Part shown: one piece after another, positions 13,145 to 45,052 of the stretch
Position numbering within the stretch: position 1 is the first letter of the stretch
How the letters are laid out: each line of letters begins with the position of its first letter
Assembly (NCBI RefSeq): GCF_016904885.1
Contig: NZ_JADWYI010000001.1
Location: 2,480,001 to 2,544,000, forward strand
Length of the DNA stretch: 64,000 nucleotides
Reading direction: 5' to 3'
Source of the DNA: Archangium primigenium
GTDB taxonomy: Bacteria; Myxococcota; Myxococcia; Myxococcales; Myxococcaceae
Notes under the pieces: generated by a model
Database searches by the model: none
The model's input: the letters and a program-made list of their open reading frames with translations, nothing else
Told to the model about the DNA's origin: nothing
Position numbers and translations under genes: made by a program

Positions 13145-14983
13145 CTACGGCGCGCACTTCGCCGGGCCGAGCGTGCCCCGGAAGAAGTACGCGTAGAGGT
13201 CCGGCGAGAGCACGAAGTTGCACGTGTTCACGGCGTCCGGGTCCAGGTCGGGATGCTTCTCCACGTAGCGGGCGATGTAGTCGCGCACGCCATCGGCCGA
13301 GGTCCACACGAGCGTGCCCTCCTTGAACATGGAGTAGCCGCCGCCGCCGCCGCCCCGGTAGTTGTTGATGGCGATGGTGAAGGTGTCCGTGTCCTTCACG
13401 TCCTGGCCCTTGAAGCGCAGGTGGGTCAGGCGCGAGCCCTGGGGCTTCGTCAGGTCATAGCCGTACTCGATGCGCGAGTAGAGATCCCAGTTGTAGTCGG
13501 CCACGCTGGCCACCTTGGCCGTCTCCGGCTTGGAGGCATCCGGCGGCGCGGCCGGGTTCCACGGCGCGAGGTAGCGCGTGTTGTGCTCCAGGGCCCGGCG
13601 CAGGATGGAGCCGTTGATGCGCATCACGTAGAGCGTGTTGTCGTAGATGTAGATGCTGTAGGCGTCGCGCAGGGTGAGGCGCCCGGCGGGCAGCTGGCCG
13701 TCATTGGTGAACAGGGCGGCGAGCGAGAAGTCCACCGGGTGGCCCGCCTCGGCCGCGGCCTCCTCCTGCACGGTGTTGATGAGGTCGCCCAGGGCGCTGT
13801 CCACGTAGCGGCCCGCGAAGCCGCCGGGGAACGGCGCGCGGGTGGAGCCGATGGGGGTGTTCACGTACGCGACCGTGGTCTGGTGGTGGCCCTGGGTGAG
13901 CCGGTCCACCTCGGCGTCCACCGCGACGGTGTCATCCACCTTGCGCAACAGCGAGTCCTTGCCGTCCACCTTCCAGTGGCCCGCCTCCCACACGAGCGAC
14001 AGGTCCACCTGGCCCAGGTGGCTGCCCCAGCGGTTGGGCTGGATGAGCAGCACGTCCTGGCCCTGGGGGTTCTTGAGGAGCATCTTGGGGATGGGCTGGT
14101 GGGTGTGGCCGGTGAGCATCACGTCGATGCCCTCGACCTCCTGGGCGATCTGCACCGCCTCGTTCTCGCCGGGCAGGTTGCCCCGGTCCGCCCACTTCGT
14201 CGGGTCCGCGTAGTCCGCGAGCCAGCTCGCCGGATCGCTCGCGCTGCCGGTGGGCTGCTTGTCCGGGCCGCTGTGGATGGCCACCACCACCACGTCCGCG
14301 CCCTCCTGGCGCATGCGGGGCACGTACGTGCGCGCCGTCTGGAGCGGGTCATCGAACCGCAAGCCGGGGATGTTCTCCGGCCGCTCCCACGTCGTCACCC
14401 CCGGCGTCACCAGGCCGAGGATGCCCACCTTCACGCCGCACACGTCCTTGATCAGGTAGGGCGTGAAGGCCTCGCCGCCGTCGGCCTCGTGGCGCACGTT
14501 GGCGCCGAGCAGCGGGAAGTTCACCTCGCTCTTGAACTTGCCGAGCACGCCGAGCCCGTAGTTGAACTCGTGGTTGCCCAGGGCCATGGCGTCATAGCCC
14601 AGGGCGCTCATGGCCACGGCCATGGGGTGGCGGGGGGCGTTGTCCACCAGGGCGTAGTAGGTGCCCAGGGGCGTGCCCTGCAGGGTGTCTCCCGTGTCGA
14701 GCAGCAGGTTGCAGTCCGGGTGCTCCGCGCGCGCCTGGCGCACGAGCGTGGCCACCTTGGCCAGGCCCCGCTGGGCATCCGCCTTGCCGGTGAAGTAGTC
14801 CCAGGGCTGGATGTTCGTGTGCAGATCGCTCGTCTGCATCAGCCGCAGCGTGCGTGGCGCGGGCGGCGGCTCGGGCTGGGGTTCGGGCTCGGGACCGTCG
14901 CACGCCGCCAGGGGCAGGAGCACCCAGCAGCAGGCGCGCAGGAGGGTCGCGCGGCGCGCGCGGCTCACGAAACGAAGTGTCAT
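13145..14983 (-). CDS. 2',3'-cyclic-nucleotide phosphodiesterase / 5'-nucleotidase lipoprotein
   Basis: Secreted metallophosphoesterase of 612 residues that degrades extracellular nucleotides or cyclic nucleotides. ATG at 14983 opens a lipoprotein signal ending in LLPLAAC; upstream in-frame codons look non-coding. The two-metal site is visible in QTSDLHTNI, DTGDTLQG, LGNHEFNYG and GHTHQPIP. The NHEFNYG form is more CpdB-like than UshA-like. The C-terminal 5'-nucleotidase domain follows, with NNYRGGGGGGYSMF near the end. The gene is convergent with the histidine kinase and divergent from the pectinacetylesterase-like gene. It probably scavenges nucleic-acid-derived phosphate during predation; that role is inferred. 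Confidence 0.9.
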   Translation of the reverse strand: MTLRFVSRARRATLLRACCWVLLPLAACDGPEPEPQPEPPPAPRTLRLMQTSDLHTNIQPWDYFTGKADAQRGLAKVATLVRQARAEHPDCNLLLDTGDTLQGTPLGTYYALVDNAPRHPMAVAMSALGYDAMALGNHEFNYGLGVLGKFKSEVNFPLLGANVRHEADGGEAFTPYLIKDVCGVKVGILGLVTPGVTTWERPENIPGLRFDDPLQTARTYVPRMRQEGADVVVVAIHSGPDKQPTGSASDPASWLADYADPTKWADRGNLPGENEAVQIAQEVEGIDVMLTGHTHQPIPKMLLKNPQGQDVLLIQPNRWGSHLGQVDLSLVWEAGHWKVDGKDSLLRKVDDTVAVDAEVDRLTQGHHQTTVAYVNTPIGSTRAPFPGGFAGRYVDSALGDLINTVQEEAAAEAGHPVDFSLAALFTNDGQLPAGRLTLRDAYSIYIYDNTLYVMRINGSILRRALEHNTRYLAPWNPAAPPDASKPETAKVASVADYNWDLYSRIEYGYDLTKPQGSRLTHLRFKGQDVKDTDTFTIAINNYRGGGGGGYSMFKEGTLVWTSADGVRDYIARYVEKHPDLDPDAVNTCNFVLSPDLYAYFFRGTLGPAKCAP

Positions 14984-15168
14984 GGGAGAAGACCTCGTGG
15001 CTAGGACCCGGAGCACCGTGCCCGGGGGCGCGCACCCTACTACCCGCCGCCGACATCGCGCGGCCGTCCAGCCGGGCATTCGCCCGTCCTCTTCACGGAG
15101 GTGGAGCGCGCCAGGATGCCCGCTTATATGGTGACACCTTGCCTTCTTTCTTTTCCGAGGACGTGACG

Positions 15169-16230
15169 ATGCGCGGCCGAGTCGAGACACGGAGTGTGCG
15201 GATGCTGCTGGCCCTGGTGGTGGCCGGGAGCGTGGCGTGTAAGGGCGACCCGCCGCCCGTGACGACTCCCGCGCACTCCTGGGGCTGGACCTCCGTGCCC
15301 GAGTCCATGTGCGACGAGGGCACCCCCACGGGCATGGGCAGCGACCTGGCGCCGGACAGCAAGAACCTGGTCATCTACTTCAGCGGCGGGGGCGCGTGCT
15401 GGGACGCCACCACGTGTCTGGAGACGAACCGCTCGCTGCACGGCCCCTTCACCGAGTCGCACTTCGGCTTCCTGCGCACCAACCTCCTGCGCGACTCCAT
15501 CCTGGACCGGGCGCTGGCCAACAACCCGTACAAGGACTGGAACCTGTTCTTCCTGCCGTACTGCACGGGGGACTTGCACATCGGTGACGCGGACCGGGTG
15601 TACACGAGCGGCTCGCGGACGCAGACGATCCACCACCGGGGCCGGGCCAACACCAAGGCCTTCCTCGAGCGCATCGCCGCCACGGTGCCCGAGCCCGAGC
15701 AGGTGCTCGTCACCGGCTCGAGCGCGGGCGGCTTCGGCGCGGCGCTCAACTACGTGCTCGTGCGCTCCACCTTCCCCAAGGCACGGGTGTTCCTCGTGGA
15801 CGACGCGGGCCCGCTGTTGCGCAACGAGGCCCTGTCGCCCCAACTGCGCGCCGCCTGGGCCCAGGCCTGGAACTACGACGCGGTGATCGACGAGATCGAC
15901 CCCGCGGTGCGCAACGACTTCTCCGCCGTCTACCCGGCGATCGCGCGCAAGTTCCCGGAGGATCGCCTGGTGCTCCTGTCCTCGCTGCGCGACCAGACCA
16001 TCCGCGACTACTTCAACCTCACGCCGGACGCGTTCGAGACGGCGCTGCGCGAGCTGGACACCGCGGTGCTCTCGCCGCTGCCCCACGCGCGCGTCTTCCT
16101 CACCTCGGGCGAGGGCCACACCCTGTTGTCCCGGCCCACGAGCCAGACCACCCGGGGCGTGACGCTGCTCGACTGGCTCCAGCAAATGCACACCGCGAGC
16201 GACGCCGAATGGACGTCGGTGCGGCCGTAG
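15169..16230 (+). CDS. Pectinacetylesterase-family lipoprotein (serine hydrolase)
   Basis: Predicted secreted lipoprotein of 353 residues; the signal ends at VVAGSVAC (Cys24). The alpha/beta-hydrolase-like core has YFSGGGACWD near residue 70 (oxyanion region), the nucleophile elbow GSSAGG (Ser about 185), VDDAG downstream, and a late His in GEGHTLL (about 317). These match the pectinacetylesterase/Notum family, whose members remove acetyl or acyl groups from polysaccharides or proteins. ATG at 15169 is chosen because GAGG sits eight bases upstream. The substrate in a predator that does not obviously degrade pectin is uncertain. Confidence 0.85.
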   Translation: MRGRVETRSVRMLLALVVAGSVACKGDPPPVTTPAHSWGWTSVPESMCDEGTPTGMGSDLAPDSKNLVIYFSGGGACWDATTCLETNRSLHGPFTESHFGFLRTNLLRDSILDRALANNPYKDWNLFFLPYCTGDLHIGDADRVYTSGSRTQTIHHRGRANTKAFLERIAATVPEPEQVLVTGSSAGGFGAALNYVLVRSTFPKARVFLVDDAGPLLRNEALSPQLRAAWAQAWNYDAVIDEIDPAVRNDFSAVYPAIARKFPEDRLVLLSSLRDQTIRDYFNLTPDAFETALRELDTAVLSPLPHARVFLTSGEGHTLLSRPTSQTTRGVTLLDWLQQMHTASDAEWTSVRP

Positions 16231-18963: not shown

Positions 18964-19665
18964 TCAAGGGGCGCTCCCCGAGCCGCCCACGCCCTGCTGC
19001 GCGTCGGGCCGGGCCACCTCCGCGACGAGCATGTCCACCAAGGGGGACACCTCGACGGTGGGGGCCGCGATGCTGCACGCCGCGCCGCCGTGGACCAGGC
19101 CCACCACCCGCAGGTGTTCATCCACCACGGGGGCGCCGGAGTCGCCCTTGGCGCCGCGCAGGCTGGTGAAGAGCGCCTGGGGCACGTCGGGCAGCGAGGG
19201 GCAGCGGCCGAGCCGGCGCAATTCGATCTCCTGGGGCTCGCCCGGTCGGTCATTGCGGCCCGCGAAGAGCAGCGCCATGCCGGGCGTGGGGGGCGTGCTC
19301 GCCACCGCGAGCGGGTGGACGGGGGCCAGCGTGTCCAGGCGGATGACGGCCACGTCCCGGTGCACGTCCACGACCTTCACCTCGCCCCCCAACAGTTGGC
19401 CTTTCCGCAGGACGACGGGCTGACGGCTGCCCGGCTCGCCCCGGATGCAGTGCGCGGCGGTGAGCGCGTGGTGGCCGTCGGCCACGATGACGCCCGCGCA
19501 GTGGCCCGGATAGAGCGTCACGGTGGCGTCCTTCAACGCGCTGAACCCGTCGACCCGGACCGCCTCCGGGGTGGGAGCGCTCGCGGCGGGGGCCTCGTCC
19601 CGGGTGGGCGTGCATGCCGCCAGCAGGCCGAGCGCCAGCAGTCCGCCCCATCTCGTTCGTGTCAT
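18964..19665 (-). CDS. Trypsin-like serine protease lipoprotein
   Basis: Secreted S1-family protease of 233 residues. ATG at 19665 has GGAGG eight bases upstream and opens a lipoprotein signal ending in LLAAC (Cys18). The catalytic triad is readable: His72 in LTAAHC, Asp104 in HRDVAVIRLD, Ser176 in KGDSGAPV. Paired cysteines near 56/73 could form the His-loop disulfide. The enzyme would face the periplasm or cell surface and probably helps degrade prey or host protein, which is inference. The next gene on this strand is the receiver at 18830, probably a separate transcript. Confidence 0.9.
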   Translation of the reverse strand: MTRTRWGGLLALGLLAACTPTRDEAPAASAPTPEAVRVDGFSALKDATVTLYPGHCAGVIVADGHHALTAAHCIRGEPGSRQPVVLRKGQLLGGEVKVVDVHRDVAVIRLDTLAPVHPLAVASTPPTPGMALLFAGRNDRPGEPQEIELRRLGRCPSLPDVPQALFTSLRGAKGDSGAPVVDEHLRVVGLVHGGAACSIAAPTVEVSPLVDMLVAEVARPDAQQGVGGSGSAP

Positions 19666-19841
19666 CCGAGGCCCTCCCATGTGCGGTGATGGGGAGACGA
19701 TGTGCATTCCCCCCGGGGCACCGGTGTCGAGCCTCCGTCGCAGGTCCGCCCAGCGGGCGTCCGGGCGGGGCTTGCACCCCGTGCCTTGGCATCCCATTGG
19801 CCGAGACGGCGCGCGCCGGGGCGGGGTAGGGTGCTCGCCCC

Positions 19842-20471
19842 ATGCGGCTCGCTCCCGATGCGCTCCCCGCCCTCCTCGAGCTGGTGATCGTGCTCGCCGT
19901 GCTGGCCATGGCGCTCCAACTGCTGCGCCTCAACGCGTGGCGGGCCTGGCTCTTCCTGTTTCCCCACCAGGTCCGGCTCCTGCCCGAGGCCCCGTCCGAG
20001 CCGCCCGCGCCGCTCGCCGCCTGGACCCAACAACTGCGGGCGCTGGGCTTCGTCCCGGTGGGCGCCCACGTCCAGAAGTCCCCCCTGCAACGGGGCACCC
20101 CCTCCTACGACTTCGCGCATCAGGGCGAGCGGACCTTCGCCACCCTCTACTTGTCCCTGCGCGGGCAGCCCCGGCTCTACCTGCTCACGCCCCTGGCCGG
20201 AGGCGATGCCGTACTCACCGATGGGGCGCTCGCGACCCGGGGGGGCGTGGCCCCGCCGCCGGAGGCCCTGCTCCAGACCCACCGCGCGCGGCTCGTGGGC
20301 CTGTCTCCGGAAGGGGAGTTCACCGCGGCGGGCCGGTTGGTCGCTGGGCGCTCGTGGTTCCAGGGACGGGGTCAGCGGGAGATTCGACGACAGAGCGTTC
20401 CTGGGTTGTTATGGACACTCGTGGCCCTCGCCATGGTGGTCTACCTGTTCGTGGGGGGCCGTACGGTTTGA
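19842..20471 (+). CDS. Hypothetical membrane protein
   Basis: 209 residues with a hydrophobic segment at each end (about 10-28 and 188-205) and a soluble middle that should lie on one face of the membrane. No catalytic motif or known family is recognised. ATG at 19842 follows the gap from the divergent protease gene. Codon use is typical of the window, so it is probably a real gene. The thiolase gene begins 79 bases downstream. Confidence 0.7.
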   Translation: MRLAPDALPALLELVIVLAVLAMALQLLRLNAWRAWLFLFPHQVRLLPEAPSEPPAPLAAWTQQLRALGFVPVGAHVQKSPLQRGTPSYDFAHQGERTFATLYLSLRGQPRLYLLTPLAGGDAVLTDGALATRGGVAPPPEALLQTHRARLVGLSPEGEFTAAGRLVAGRSWFQGRGQREIRRQSVPGLLWTLVALAMVVYLFVGGRTV

Positions 20472-39691: not shown

Positions 39692-40267
39692 CTAGAGGAG
39701 GATGACCACGACCACGACGACCACCACGATGATGCCGCCACACAGCCACCAGCGGCCGTGGCAGTTGATCCCGAGGGTGAGGCCAATGAACCGCTCCGCG
39801 GCCTCGGCGTGCTCCTCGGCGAAGAGGGGATCACAGGCGATGCGCGCCTTCGTGCGCTCCAGCATCCGCCGGAAGTAATCCGGGTTCATCGGGCTCACGT
39901 CGATCGGCGAGGACAGGCCCTCGACCAGCTTCTCGTGGGAGGGCCGCTCGGCGCGCATCTCGAAGAGCCGCCGCGCTTCCATGTAGAGCGCGCCCTGCAG
40001 GATCCGATCGTCCTCCGAGCCGAACTCCACGGGGTAGTGGTTCTTCATGAACTGCTCGAGATCCCGCAGGCCCTCGGCCTCGGGCTGCTCCTCGATGAAC
40101 TTGCCGATCGACTGTGCCGTCTCCGTGATGAACTCATCCTCCCGCCCGTGCTCCACGGCGGCGCAGGTCTTGGCGGCCGAGGCGGTCCCGGTGAGTCCCA
40201 GTCCCGTGGCCAGGGACACGCCCCCCATGACTCCCGTACCCATGAAGAACCTGCGCGACATCGTCAT
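39692..40267 (-). CDS. Tat-exported, C-terminally anchored protein of unknown function
   Basis: 191 residues. The N-terminus has a twin-arginine signal (MSRRFFMGTG with hydrophobic core and TASAA), and the last 13 residues are almost pure Ile/Val/Leu (IIVVVVVVVV), a C-terminal membrane anchor preceded by HGRWWLCGG. Between them is a soluble helical domain with Asp/Glu-rich helices. No family is recognised. The tail layout recalls C-tail-anchored or sortase-like substrates without a cleavage motif. ATG at 40267 (or 40261) fits. Confidence 0.6.
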   Translation of the reverse strand: MTMSRRFFMGTGVMGGVSLATGLGLTGTASAAKTCAAVEHGREDEFITETAQSIGKFIEEQPEAEGLRDLEQFMKNHYPVEFGSEDDRILQGALYMEARRLFEMRAERPSHEKLVEGLSSPIDVSPMNPDYFRRMLERTKARIACDPLFAEEHAEAAERFIGLTLGINCHGRWWLCGGIIVVVVVVVVILL

Positions 40268-42257: not shown

Positions 42258-43190
42258 TCACGGGAAGCGCACGCCCGAAATCGTCGCCGTTCGTGTGGCT
42301 TCCTGATTCCAGAGCTTGAGGGTGCTTGGGCCGGGGGTCGCATTTCCTGGGAGGTCGACTTCGATGAGAACCCGCCCGGTGCTCTTGGGAAGAATGGGCT
42401 GGGGTGACCACACCTCGGCGGGCCATTCTCCGGTCGGCGTGACGAGTCGGGCCTGGGTGGGGGTCCAGGGGGTCGAACCGTGATTCGTCAATTGGAGATC
42501 CACGGCCAGGCGCATCCTGGGCATGCGCATGCTCCCATCCGCGGCCCGATAGCTGACGGCGTTGCGGACGCGAAATGTCTCGGGTTGACCGATGATGAGG
42601 TGGGCTGTGATGGACATGCTGGCGATTCCCGCCGACGAGAGTTGGCCCTGGATGAGCATTCGCATCAGACCTTCATGTCTGTCCTGTTCCTTTGTCGCCA
42701 GGAGCAATGCCGTCTGGCATTCCTGGAGCCGCGTGCGGCTCTCCTCGGCTTCTGTGTGAGCGCGATCGGAAGGAGCGAGGCGTCTGGAGACCTCCCACTG
42801 CGGCTCCGATTGAGGTGACACCACGAGAACGAGATCGAGCGGGTTGGGCTCGGCCTCGTTCACGAACTGGAGGGTCAAGGTCAGGCGCCTTCCCATCCGC
42901 AGTTCACGCGAGGGCAAGAGGGTGAGCAGCAGGCCATCCGCCGACAACGTCACGTGCCGGAAGGATTCTCGCGCCTCCAATACGATTCCGTCCCGAGTGA
43001 GGGGGGCGTCGAAGATCAGCAGCAGTCCCCGCCCTGGACTGATGCGTATTTCTCGCGGTGACCGTGACGCTCCGGTGGTCCCGGAGGAACGTGAACCCGT
43101 CGAGCTTGTTCCCGCATCGGGCCGAGCTTCCGCCGGTTCAGGTGTGCTTGTCAGCAACAGCCAGGACAGCATCGCGAGCGGGACGGGCAT
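42258..43190 (-). CDS. DUF2381 family secreted protein
   Basis: 310 residues with an N-terminal signal peptide. The body is beta-rich (EIRISPGRGLLLIFDAPL, LTLTLQFVNEAEPNPLDLVLVV, and the C-terminal GRVLIEVDLPG), typical of the Myxococcus paralogous family TIGR02268/DUF2381. Members are commonly encoded beside Ser/Thr kinases, as here: the kinase gene lies 59 bases upstream in the same orientation. I infer that it is a partner or target of the kinase's extracellular part. Codon use is somewhat less GC-biased than neighbours. Confidence 0.85.
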   Translation of the reverse strand: MPVPLAMLSWLLLTSTPEPAEARPDAGTSSTGSRSSGTTGASRSPREIRISPGRGLLLIFDAPLTRDGIVLEARESFRHVTLSADGLLLTLLPSRELRMGRRLTLTLQFVNEAEPNPLDLVLVVSPQSEPQWEVSRRLAPSDRAHTEAEESRTRLQECQTALLLATKEQDRHEGLMRMLIQGQLSSAGIASMSITAHLIIGQPETFRVRNAVSYRAADGSMRMPRMRLAVDLQLTNHGSTPWTPTQARLVTPTGEWPAEVWSPQPILPKSTGRVLIEVDLPGNATPGPSTLKLWNQEATRTATISGVRFP

Positions 43191-43249: not shown

Positions 43250-45052
43250 TCAATCCCGGTGGGCGGTGTACTCGTCGAAGCGAGCCACCGCCATCAGATA
43301 GACGGTCGAGACAATCTTGATGGCGCCAGGCTTGCTACCGGCCTCGATGGGCATACCGCGTCGAAAGGGGACCTGATCCCAAATCTCCATGCAGACGGGA
43401 TAGACCTTTCCGTCCGGGGTTTGGGCCCGCGTATAGCGGCCATAGGCCCGATCCTCCGAGAAATACAGTCGACCCGTGAAGACGGTCTCTTGAGGCAGGT
43501 GCTCTCCCCACGCTTCGAGCGCGGCGAGGGGCGCGTCTGGCTGAACGACGACAGGTGCCACGTGGCTCTCGTTCGGAAACGTCGCGAGGTATTTGCCTCC
43601 GGGCCCGACTCCCCATTCCCGCATGTAGAGCCAGGCCTCGGGAGGGCACTCCTCTTCAGGGGGCAGGACAGGCCTGGCCGCCTGAGGGGTCGCGCAGGCG
43701 AGTTGTCCCAGCGCCCAGGCGGAGATGCAGGCCTGGGTCAGTCGAAAGGTCTTCATGAGCATGTTGTCCTGGGTGGGCGCCGCGTGGGCGCTGTGCGTGG
43801 GGTGACCTTCGGGTGGCTCGCTCGACGTGGTCACCTCCGACGTCGAGACGAGAACGGTCAGGGCGAGAAGCAGCAGCATGAGGCCCATTCCGAGCAGAAC
43901 GGGCCGGGTGATGCGTCGCGCGGGCGGGGGTGCTTCGTGCCCGCCCGCGTCCGTGGAGGCCTCCTCCCGGGGCCGGGGCGCGCCTCGCCGGGCGTGGCGC
44001 CGCGCGTAGTCCCGCAGGCGCAGGGCCTTGTCCCTCCGGTCTCCCGGCGTGAGCGGCCCGTCCTGGGGCGTGGTGGCGGTGTCGGGGGACCACGGCTGGC
44101 ACAGGGGCGCGTCCCACGTCGGGTCCGCCGCCCGCTCCAGGGCCTCCAGGGCCGTGTCCAGGGCGCCAGCGTCGGGGAGGCGCGCGTCGAGCGCCTTGTC
44201 CAGCAGGCGCAGACACAGCTCGCCCAGCGCCCGGGGCGCGCGCGGGTTGCGCACATGGGGCGGCTCGGGCGTCTCCTGGAGGATCCGGTCCGCGAGGCCG
44301 CCCTCGTCCTCCAGGGCCGAGCGGGGCTCGAAGGGGTAGCTGTGCGTGAGCAGCCAGTAGAGCAGCACGCCCAGCGCCCACAGGTCATCCGAGGGCCGCG
44401 CCGGGGAGAACTCGCCCACGTGCTCGCGGCGGAAGCGCAGGGCCTCGGGGCTGCGGTAGTACGGCGTGCCGGGCAGGGCGAGGGGATGGGTGATGTGCGG
44501 CGCCCCGAGGTACGTGCCCACCCCGAAGTCCACCAGCACCGCCCCGCCATCCACGTCCCGCACGAGCACGTTGGACGCCTTCACGTCCCGGTGCACCACG
44601 CCCGCGCGGTGGATGTACCGCACCTGCCGCGCGAGCTCGCGCATCACCCGCGCCACCGCGCGCGCCGAGGGGTTCTCCTCCCGAGCCCAGGCCTCCAGCG
44701 GACGACCCCTCACGTAGGGCAGGACCAGGAAGAGGTGAGTGGGGTGGTCCGCGGGCCATTGGCCATGGCCGAGCACGCATGCCGACCCCAGGCGCCGCAG
44801 CCGCAGCCCCACCTCCAGCTCCCGCCAGGGCCACCCGCCGCGCGCCAGGGGGAGGAACTTGAGCGCGTAGAGCCGGCCCGCGCGCCGGGCCCGGTACACC
44901 GTGCCCTGGCCACCCGCGCCCAGCCGGGCCTCCAGCCGGTAGCCGTCCACGTGCTCGCCGAGCGCGGGCGGCGTCGCGTCCTCCAGCCCCGGTGGGGGCC
45001 GCTCGGTCCTCCACCGCCGGGGCGCCCCGTGCGGTTGTCCTGCCTCGTTCAT
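43250..45052 (-). CDS. Serine/threonine protein kinase with a lipoprotein-like C-terminal half
   Basis: 600 residues. The N-terminal kinase domain has GAGGQG (45-50), Lys65 in YALKFL, HRDVKASN (Asp156), VDFGVG (Asp175) and GTPYYRSPE, so it is probably active. After a basic linker, a transmembrane helix (about 384-403) is followed by MLMKTFRLTQ, then LGQLAC (Cys453), which looks like a complete lipoprotein signal inside the protein. The last 145 residues are extracellular-type sequence. ATG codons exist at 43762 and 43756, so a separate lipoprotein could also be made by internal initiation. It precedes the DUF2381 gene in one operon. Confidence 0.9.
   Translation of the reverse strand: MNEAGQPHGAPRRWRTERPPPGLEDATPPALGEHVDGYRLEARLGAGGQGTVYRARRAGRLYALKFLPLARGGWPWRELEVGLRLRRLGSACVLGHGQWPADHPTHLFLVLPYVRGRPLEAWAREENPSARAVARVMRELARQVRYIHRAGVVHRDVKASNVLVRDVDGGAVLVDFGVGTYLGAPHITHPLALPGTPYYRSPEALRFRREHVGEFSPARPSDDLWALGVLLYWLLTHSYPFEPRSALEDEGGLADRILQETPEPPHVRNPRAPRALGELCLRLLDKALDARLPDAGALDTALEALERAADPTWDAPLCQPWSPDTATTPQDGPLTPGDRRDKALRLRDYARRHARRGAPRPREEASTDAGGHEAPPPARRITRPVLLGMGLMLLLLALTVLVSTSEVTTSSEPPEGHPTHSAHAAPTQDNMLMKTFRLTQACISAWALGQLACATPQAARPVLPPEEECPPEAWLYMREWGVGPGGKYLATFPNESHVAPVVVQPDAPLAALEAWGEHLPQETVFTGRLYFSEDRAYGRYTRAQTPDGKVYPVCMEIWDQVPFRRGMPIEAGSKPGAIKIVSTVYLMAVARFDEYTAHRD

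Follow-up and report, generated by a model that had tools for sequence, protein, structure and literature searches.

A nested lipoprotein gene in a kinase frame?

The kinase gene at positions 43250-45052 (minus strand) of the window, by which we mean the whole 64,000-nucleotide stretch of Archangium primigenium DNA that was analysed, raises the question whether one reading frame may encode both a transmembrane Ser/Thr kinase and a separate lipoprotein. The preliminary description of the locus had proposed as much, with the fusion of a kinase to a lipoprotein gene as the other possible history. We consider it probable (about 0.75), judging from sequence comparison and structure prediction, that the locus comprises two genes in one frame, one for a VirB10-like transmembrane kinase and one, with a nested start, for a VirB10-like lipoprotein, paired with a VirB9-like DUF2381 protein. 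The observations behind this reading are a conserved start codon, Shine-Dalgarno (SD) sequence, cysteine and DNA motif, the existence of standalone and decoupled forms, gene linkage and the predicted folds.

Organization of the window gene

The open reading frame of 600 amino acids contains, in this order, a kinase domain, a transmembrane (TM) helix, a linker, the internal lipoprotein signal and a C-terminal domain, and is overlapped by an antisense open reading frame that is longer than the gene itself. The kinase domain (residues 38-291; 44180-44941, minus strand) matched Pfam family PF00069 (Pkinase) with an E-value of 2.2e-29 and has kept, by motif position, the catalytic lysine (K65), the HRD motif (at 154) and the DFG motif (at 175). 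The TM helix of the full-length kinase (residues 384-403; 43844-43903, minus strand) has a hydropathy of 2.64, versus 0.97 for the best 19 residues of the lipoprotein-type signal. A Thr/Ser/Pro linker then runs into NMLMKTFRLTQACISAWALGQLAC453, followed by a mature domain of 148 residues, so that the stretch from M431/M433 to LGQLAC behind the TM helix is present as first described.

The putative nested gene covers 43250-43762 (minus strand), that is 170 codons from the ATG of M431, an assignment based on the conservation of the start codon across the family; a second ATG, that of M433, lies at 43754-43756. The lipoprotein-type signal comprises residues 431-452 (43697-43762, minus strand) and precedes the codon of the presumably lipidated Cys453 (43694-43696, minus strand), whose column is kept among relatives. 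From C453 onward the mature product would have a mass of 16.5 kDa, in line with the earlier estimate of ~17 kDa. Searched against the Pfam and NCBIfam models, the 170-residue nested product had no match at E<=1. Directly next to the kinase gene and on the same strand, we indeed identified the DUF2381 gene (42258-43190, minus strand), which scored above the cut-offs of both PF09544 (E 1.6e-24; 87.2 bits versus 29.2) and TIGR02268 (E 1.1e-41; 143.1 bits versus 76.15), and whose product has a hydrophobic N-terminus.

Family, distribution and sampling

The C-terminal domain belongs to a large paralogous family, with at least 612 matches in 28 of 58 sampled genomes of the GTDB family and the highest numbers per genome (at least 57 and at least 60) in a two-contig and a fragmented genome, respectively. 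The survey of the order covered 145 genomes and detected the domain in 67, with 64 of these in the same GTDB family. All these copy numbers may be lower bounds, as up to 62 candidates were scored per genome in the GTDB family and up to 28 in the order. The other three genomes in the order (G073, G074 and G078, of another family) gave marginal matches (E 5.5e-4 to 8.3e-4), which could be distant relatives or chance. A match of 44 residues in a gut metagenome-assembled genome, obtained in a single-protein scan, was discarded as spurious. For the window gene no close orthologue was found in three other genomes of the genus, where the best match was 40% identical. Its own genome holds seven more kinase-fused copies (L008-L013 and L019) and nine DUF2381 genes. 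In seven of the eight fused copies, the window gene included, an ATG is followed by a stretch containing K or R, a hydrophobic run, [AG]C, a spacer with Pro and finally CP or CS; L011, the remaining copy, offers just a TTG with a weak SD sequence.

For the comparisons below we used 89 open reading frames, namely nine from the own genome and 80 loci that were hand-picked among the best matches listed, with short-frame cases deliberately included. The 88 loci of the kinase-linker type are these 89 without L020, and a few of them have a broken or lost kinase; L062, L066 and L067 run to the end of a contig. Forty more loci, from the same list and genomes, were fetched once the hypothesis was fixed and served as a hold-out set. 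The sequences tested are related to each other, and cluster weighting lessens the effect of this kinship and does not remove it. A full kinase was found in frame in 80 of the 89 loci (a count that includes L010, which seems frameshifted in the glycine loop) and DUF2381 directly downstream in 86, the exceptions being L020, L019 (DUF2381 upstream) and L062 (contig end).

Conservation of the lipoprotein-type signal

A lack of conservation of the lipobox Cys, which would have spoken against the proposal, was not seen. In several tests the Cys was located by pattern, so that the invariance of position C1 in alignment A2 follows from the procedure; in the independent check it occupied one alignment column in 87 of 89 rows, the other two being slightly shifted, and 36 of the 40 hold-out rows had it in the aligned column. 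All 88 linkers contain [AGS]C. The 12-residue hydropathy of the lipoprotein-type signals had a median of 1.84, and in the 69 linkers with an SD match of at least 4 nt the net charge was +3.7 after the start and -1.2 over the preceding 35 residues. Past an N-in TM helix such a basic stretch fits the full-length chain poorly, and in a fresh signal it is normal. A second TM helix at the position of the signal was also considered and rejected, as the stretch reached a hydropathy of 1.6 in just 5 of 88 linkers; the TM helix itself did so in 73.

The lipobox proper is another matter. The strict pattern [LVI][ASTVI][GAS]C was found in only 9 of the 88 linkers and in none of the five standalone lipoprotein signals described below, and the window gene has Q-L-A-C, with a non-canonical Q at -3. 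As far as can be judged from these sequences, the shortfall weakens the case for a canonical lipobox. The start codon, the basic n-region, the hydrophobic core and the small residue before the Cys are the elements of a lipoprotein signal that the relatives do show.

A generic scan for such signals (start codon with an SD match of 4 nt, net charge of at least +2, hydrophobic 12-mer, [AGS]C and at least 60 codons inside the frame) flagged 60 of the 88 relatives at their own Cys, the window gene included, and missed 28. Applied to the window (194 six-frame open reading frames of at least 150 codons; 72,616 codons), it gave six hits, one of which was the 43250-45052 gene. Among the remaining five, some resemble genuine N-termini within overlong frames.

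The internal start codon and Shine-Dalgarno sequence

In the MAFFT alignment of the linkers, ATG, GTG or TTG was present at one of two neighbouring columns in 83 of 88 cases and absent from these columns in five (L091, L099, L120, L123 and L130). Where the main start column held Val, the codon was GTG in 44 of 44 cases, from 28 of 28 sequence clusters, against a background in which GTG makes up 73% of the Val codons in the kinase-encoding portion of these genes. The hold-out set gave the same picture, with GTG for Val at the start in 22 of 22 cases and a start codon in 37 of 40; for the 16 dissimilar loci in it, which share less than 20% of their 9-mers with any sequence of the first set, these figures were 9 of 9 and 14 of 16. 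The Val columns, and the Glu columns used below, were taken from the MAFFT alignment, in which rows shift between columns 89 and 90. We also observed that the Val of a PAPVA motif (alignment column 76, 14 columns upstream of the start) is encoded by GTC in 51 of 52 cases, or 73 of 76 with the hold-out set included, despite the GTG preference of the same genes. Perhaps this reflects avoidance of a competing start, or the Val codon is part of a 5' leader.

The mean best SD match in front of an in-frame start was 3.89 nt, compared with 3.03+-0.22 under synonymous recoding (300 draws, maximum 3.59) and 2.04+-0.23 under codon shuffling (maximum 2.66). With one vote per cluster the mean was 3.86, compared with 3.15+-0.24 (200 draws, maximum 3.82) and 1.96+-0.27 (maximum 2.71), respectively. 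An SD match of at least 4 nt before a start located 15-48 codons upstream of the Cys was found in 69 of the 88 linkers and was absent in 19. The window gene itself has only a weak AGGA (43767-43770, minus strand) upstream of M431, annotated as SD-like on the strength of the family-wide test. Read at the nucleotide level, the constraints on the start codon, the SD sequence and the DNA upstream (next section) go beyond what the protein sequence of the kinase explains.

A conserved DNA element in the linker

Between the TM helix and the internal start we found a DNA element of the form GAA-N-T-R-GCG, followed at a fixed distance by [G/C]AA-NN-T. The GAA-N-T-R-GCG part was matched by pattern in 76 of the 89 sequences, and the A and T were in place in all 76. 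The first Glu of the motif is encoded by GAA in 56 of 57 cases and in 21 of 21 in the hold-out set (background 10%), and where the codon after it specifies Leu, it is TTG (11 of 11). One motif codon specifies seven different amino acids, yet its wobble base is T in 122 of 128 cases (background 5.7% of codons), and A is the second base of the adjoining upstream codon in 119 of 127; we know of no protein constraint that would fix a wobble T across seven amino acids. The distance from the start of the motif to the internal start was 102-123 nt in 52 of 60 relatives. In the window the element (GAG GTG ACC ... GAA GGT; 43805-43837, minus strand) was assigned by the register of the family motif; it has GAG in place of GAA and lies 75 nt from M431.

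The A2 and T6 positions are the most critical bases of a -10 hexamer. Because the fixed A and T of the linker motif match these positions and a -35-like hexamer (xTRGCG) lies 18 nt upstream of the -10-like box, the motif may be read as an internal promoter, which on this sequence pattern we hold to be somewhat better than an even bet. The window copy would then consist of a -35-like GTGACC (43829-43834, minus strand) and a -10-like GAAGGT (43805-43810, minus strand) with a spacer of 18 nt. The motif is absent at the examined loci where DUF2381 comes first (L019, L151 and L158) and at the standalone loci, a pattern compatible with a promoter for the lipoprotein-DUF2381 pair.

It is also quite conceivable, at odds that we put a little short of even, that the motif is another nucleic-acid signal, such as an operator, an mRNA element or a site of recombination or gene conversion, and that the internal start is translated from the full-length mRNA. 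A standard sigma-70 scan found no promoter within the gene, and the additional codon constraint at PAPVA is not explained by a promoter. Neither does the motif appear to be a genome-wide feature: its strict form had 10 hits in the own genome, five of them in these linkers, versus 31 hits for the reversed pattern, and a genome-wide regulon was for this reason dropped as unsupported. Against such a signal stand the coincidence of the two most constrained bases with A2 and T6, the hexamer at 18 nt, the narrow range of distances to the start and the lack of the motif in the examined loci with DUF2381 upstream. In the RNA-fold test of the motif region (76 sequences) the shuffled controls scored 0 too, and the region had no Rfam match.

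Standalone, split and broken forms

The survey for split and fused forms that had been suggested for this kinase family turned up standalone, out-of-frame, kinase-less and fused copies. Five loci (L020, L152, L153, L154 and L155) encode separate lipoproteins of 162-166 residues directly after DUF2381. These standalone members of the same family, adjoining DUF2381, lend support at the sequence level to a fusion of the kinase with a lipoprotein gene. In L151, DUF2381 is followed by a kinase with TM helix and then, out of frame with the kinase, by the lipoprotein, which has an ATG of its own and the SD sequence AAGGAAG; the related L158 is fused around this same SD sequence and carries a TAG inside the kinase. 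In L069 an in-frame TAG lies between kinase and TM helix and DUF2381 is kept, and at L057/L159 and L065/L160 the kinase was not found in the locus and DUF2381 is again present. The loci were found by means of the lipoprotein domain, so that loss of this domain could not show up. Together with the constraints on start codon, SD sequence and upstream DNA, the broken or lost kinases next to a persisting lipoprotein frame and DUF2381 favour, as far as sequences go, the idea of one gene with two products.

Two further loci may be mentioned here. In L011 (own genome, C1:4663328-4666760) the kinase is interrupted by an insertion with a transposase-like open reading frame, and the lipoprotein part and DUF2381 stay open despite this interruption. 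In L160 (G028:C38), which has lost its kinase, the sequence upstream of the linker encodes PLSLWERAGVR, which we take to resemble a dispersed repeat.

Predicted folds of the C-terminal domain and DUF2381

The AlphaFold model of the C-terminal domain of the window protein (about residues 475-591; 43280-43630, minus strand), built with 55 sequences, had a pLDDT of 91.2. The 16 best PDB rows found with Foldseek were all chains of type IV secretion system (T4SS) core complexes, and VIA-align gave Z-scores of 6.2-10.6 for 14 VirB10-type entries, the next row having 2.6; the best match was 9ngw_A (Z 10.6, rmsd 2.9, 100 residues aligned). The fold is thus predicted to resemble the VirB10 C-terminal domain, and the model has a single helix (residues 19-27) and lacks the antenna helices. 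At the sequence level the VirB10/TrbI model PF03743 matched 3 of the 55 members at E<=1 and the related TraM model 7, the window member being in neither group; the best PF03743 score (22.8 bits, E 8.9e-5, in L010) stayed below the gathering score of 35, and the own genome had no PF03743 match at E<=0.01.

For DUF2381 (model pLDDT 86, pTM 0.53), the four best Foldseek rows and the seven best VIA rows were T4SS chains, with VIA Z-scores of 10.3-12.6 for VirB9-type chains and 8.6 for the next. Its N-terminal domain superimposed on 7mue_AH with a Z-score of 12.6 and an rmsd of 2.0 over 98 residues, suggesting a VirB9-like protein of two beta-sandwich domains; superpositions over the whole length had an rmsd of 13-27 and, at this pTM, leave the domain arrangement unconfirmed. 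The VirB9/CagX Pfam model was not among the matches listed (25 of 33 families; 40 members). We take the matched chains to be VirB10, TrwE, CagY and DotG for the domain and VirB9, TrwF, TraK and DotH for DUF2381, partly from titles and partly from chain names. Sequence searches of the PDB gave nothing useful for either protein.

A model for the locus and alternative explanations

In the model that we favour, the first start would yield a Ser/Thr kinase with one passage through the inner membrane and a VirB10 C-terminal-type domain in the periplasm, and the internal start (M431/M433 in the window gene; ATG, GTG or TTG in relatives) would yield the C-terminal domain alone, as a lipoprotein. Use of the internal start would depend on its own SD sequence and probably on its own promoter in the linker codons, and the nested product, carrying its own export signal, would be exported and lipidated. 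The lipoprotein and the VirB9-like DUF2381 protein may then form an envelope pair, with contacts like those of VirB10 and VirB9 in T4SS core complexes, which the kinase form could join and whose assembly state it could report to the cytoplasm.

Two other explanations keep a single translation product, and we consider both unlikely. The lipoprotein signal might be the relic of an ancestral fusion, only the full-length kinase being made and its C-terminal domain serving as an ordinary TM-held periplasmic sensor. The standalone lipoproteins would be plausible donors for such a fusion, and the kinase in frame at 80 of 89 loci (L010 among them) and the rarely matched strict lipobox are in line with it. 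It is nevertheless improbable that a relic would keep the Cys, the [AGS] at -1, the basic stretch, the NTG codon and the SD sequence across 57 sequence clusters, with GTG chosen at one Val and avoided at another 14 alignment columns away, and the basic stretch would come to lie on the periplasmic side. Less probable still is that the full-length kinase is cleaved or lipidated at the internal Cys, without internal initiation. The full-length protein likewise keeps the Cys and the hydrophobic stretch, as such processing would have it; but it leaves the selection at the codon level for NTG, SD sequence and upstream motif unexplained, the lipoprotein of L151 is out of frame with its kinase, and in 83 of 88 linkers the hydropathy of the stretch falls short of a second TM helix.

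Relation to known systems

VirB10 is described in one account (PMC6536674) as a cytosolic part, a TM helix, a periplasmic part that is mostly unstructured and in many cases rich in Pro, and a C-terminal domain in a ring with VirB9 and VirB7; according to another (PMC12624023) it reaches from the cytoplasm to the outer membrane. The myxobacterial kinase has the same order of cytoplasmic part, TM helix, Pro-rich linker and C-terminal domain as VirB10/TrbI (PF03743) in the former account (PMC6536674), and the predicted folds of the lipoprotein domain and DUF2381 match the respective chain types. Moreover, the five standalone loci share the gene order of the VirB9/VirB10 pair of T4SS, with the VirB9-like gene first and the VirB10-like one second. 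Unlike VirB10, the myxobacterial protein has a kinase as its cytoplasmic part and no antenna helices, and its domain also exists as a lipoprotein. Tentatively, and at somewhat less than even odds, the VirB9-VirB10 outer-membrane core of a T4SS may have been converted in fruiting myxobacteria into a large repertoire of trans-envelope receptors, in which the lipoprotein builds the assembly, the kinase-tethered form reports on it and each locus, besides yielding both forms by means of the nested promoter and start, supplies its VirB9-like partner. If so, several dozen versions per genome would suit the recognition of kin, prey or surfaces.

In-frame internal starts are known from other systems, for instance from CheA, whose short form is produced in this way. 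Excerpts of the respective reports describe shorter C-terminal products of this kind for archaeal Cas11b (PMC11899642) and a short form for SpaO (PMC13059759). In all these cases, as far as the excerpts describe them, one frame with an internal start gives the C-terminal product alone, as proposed here; unlike them, the myxobacterial short product would gain an export and lipidation signal and thereby another location, and the nested arrangement recurs in a family whose largest sets comprise at least 57 (two-contig genome) or at least 60 (fragmented genome) domain matches, and has an additional upstream DNA element. The window kinase also shares the order of kinase, single TM helix and extracytoplasmic domain with the Hanks-type PASTA kinases (PknB/Stk1), and differs from these in that its extracytoplasmic domain is predicted to be VirB10-like; the PASTA equivalog scored 110.5 bits versus a cut-off of 450.

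The neighbouring gene is a member of the Myxococcus paralogous family TIGR02268/DUF2381, whose TIGR02268 description, we believe, notes the adjacency to kinases. We found no description of TIGR02268 or DUF2381 that mentions a lipoprotein nested in the kinase gene, and our literature searches returned no paper on DUF2381 or TIGR02268 and none on a Myxococcus xanthus kinase together with a lipoprotein and an internal start codon. Among the matches listed for VirB10/VirB9 with Myxococcus and kinase, none was on the subject by its title, and a term search did not find the word 'lipoprotein' in the accessible part of one survey of myxobacterial signalling. If the two-gene reading is true, annotation would overlook hundreds of lipoprotein genes inside kinase genes (given the domain matches in 28 genomes), DUF2381 would be given a direction, and a large group of myxobacterial kinases would gain a physical partner and a possible input. 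The locus would then offer a clean example of coding sequence that selection shapes for four roles at once, those of regulatory DNA, a ribosome site, a linker and a signal peptide, which could be addressed by synonymous changes alone.

Other observations

Elsewhere in the window, three open reading frames (18966-19929, minus strand; 14793-16227, plus strand; and 13147-15370, minus strand) have an internal Met with a clean lipoprotein-type signal behind it; these Met codons are probably the true N-termini of lipoprotein genes in overlong frames. We also noted a small protein (39692-40267, minus strand) with a twin-arginine-like N-terminus and an odd, entirely hydrophobic tail, ...GGIIVVVVVVVVILL. 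Finally, the own genome encodes sister kinases (L014-L017) in which we saw, by eye, no nested lipoprotein part and which end in a short Cys-containing tail (QK.APC..GLE.E...CW); this tail is a second conserved extracytoplasmic kinase module.
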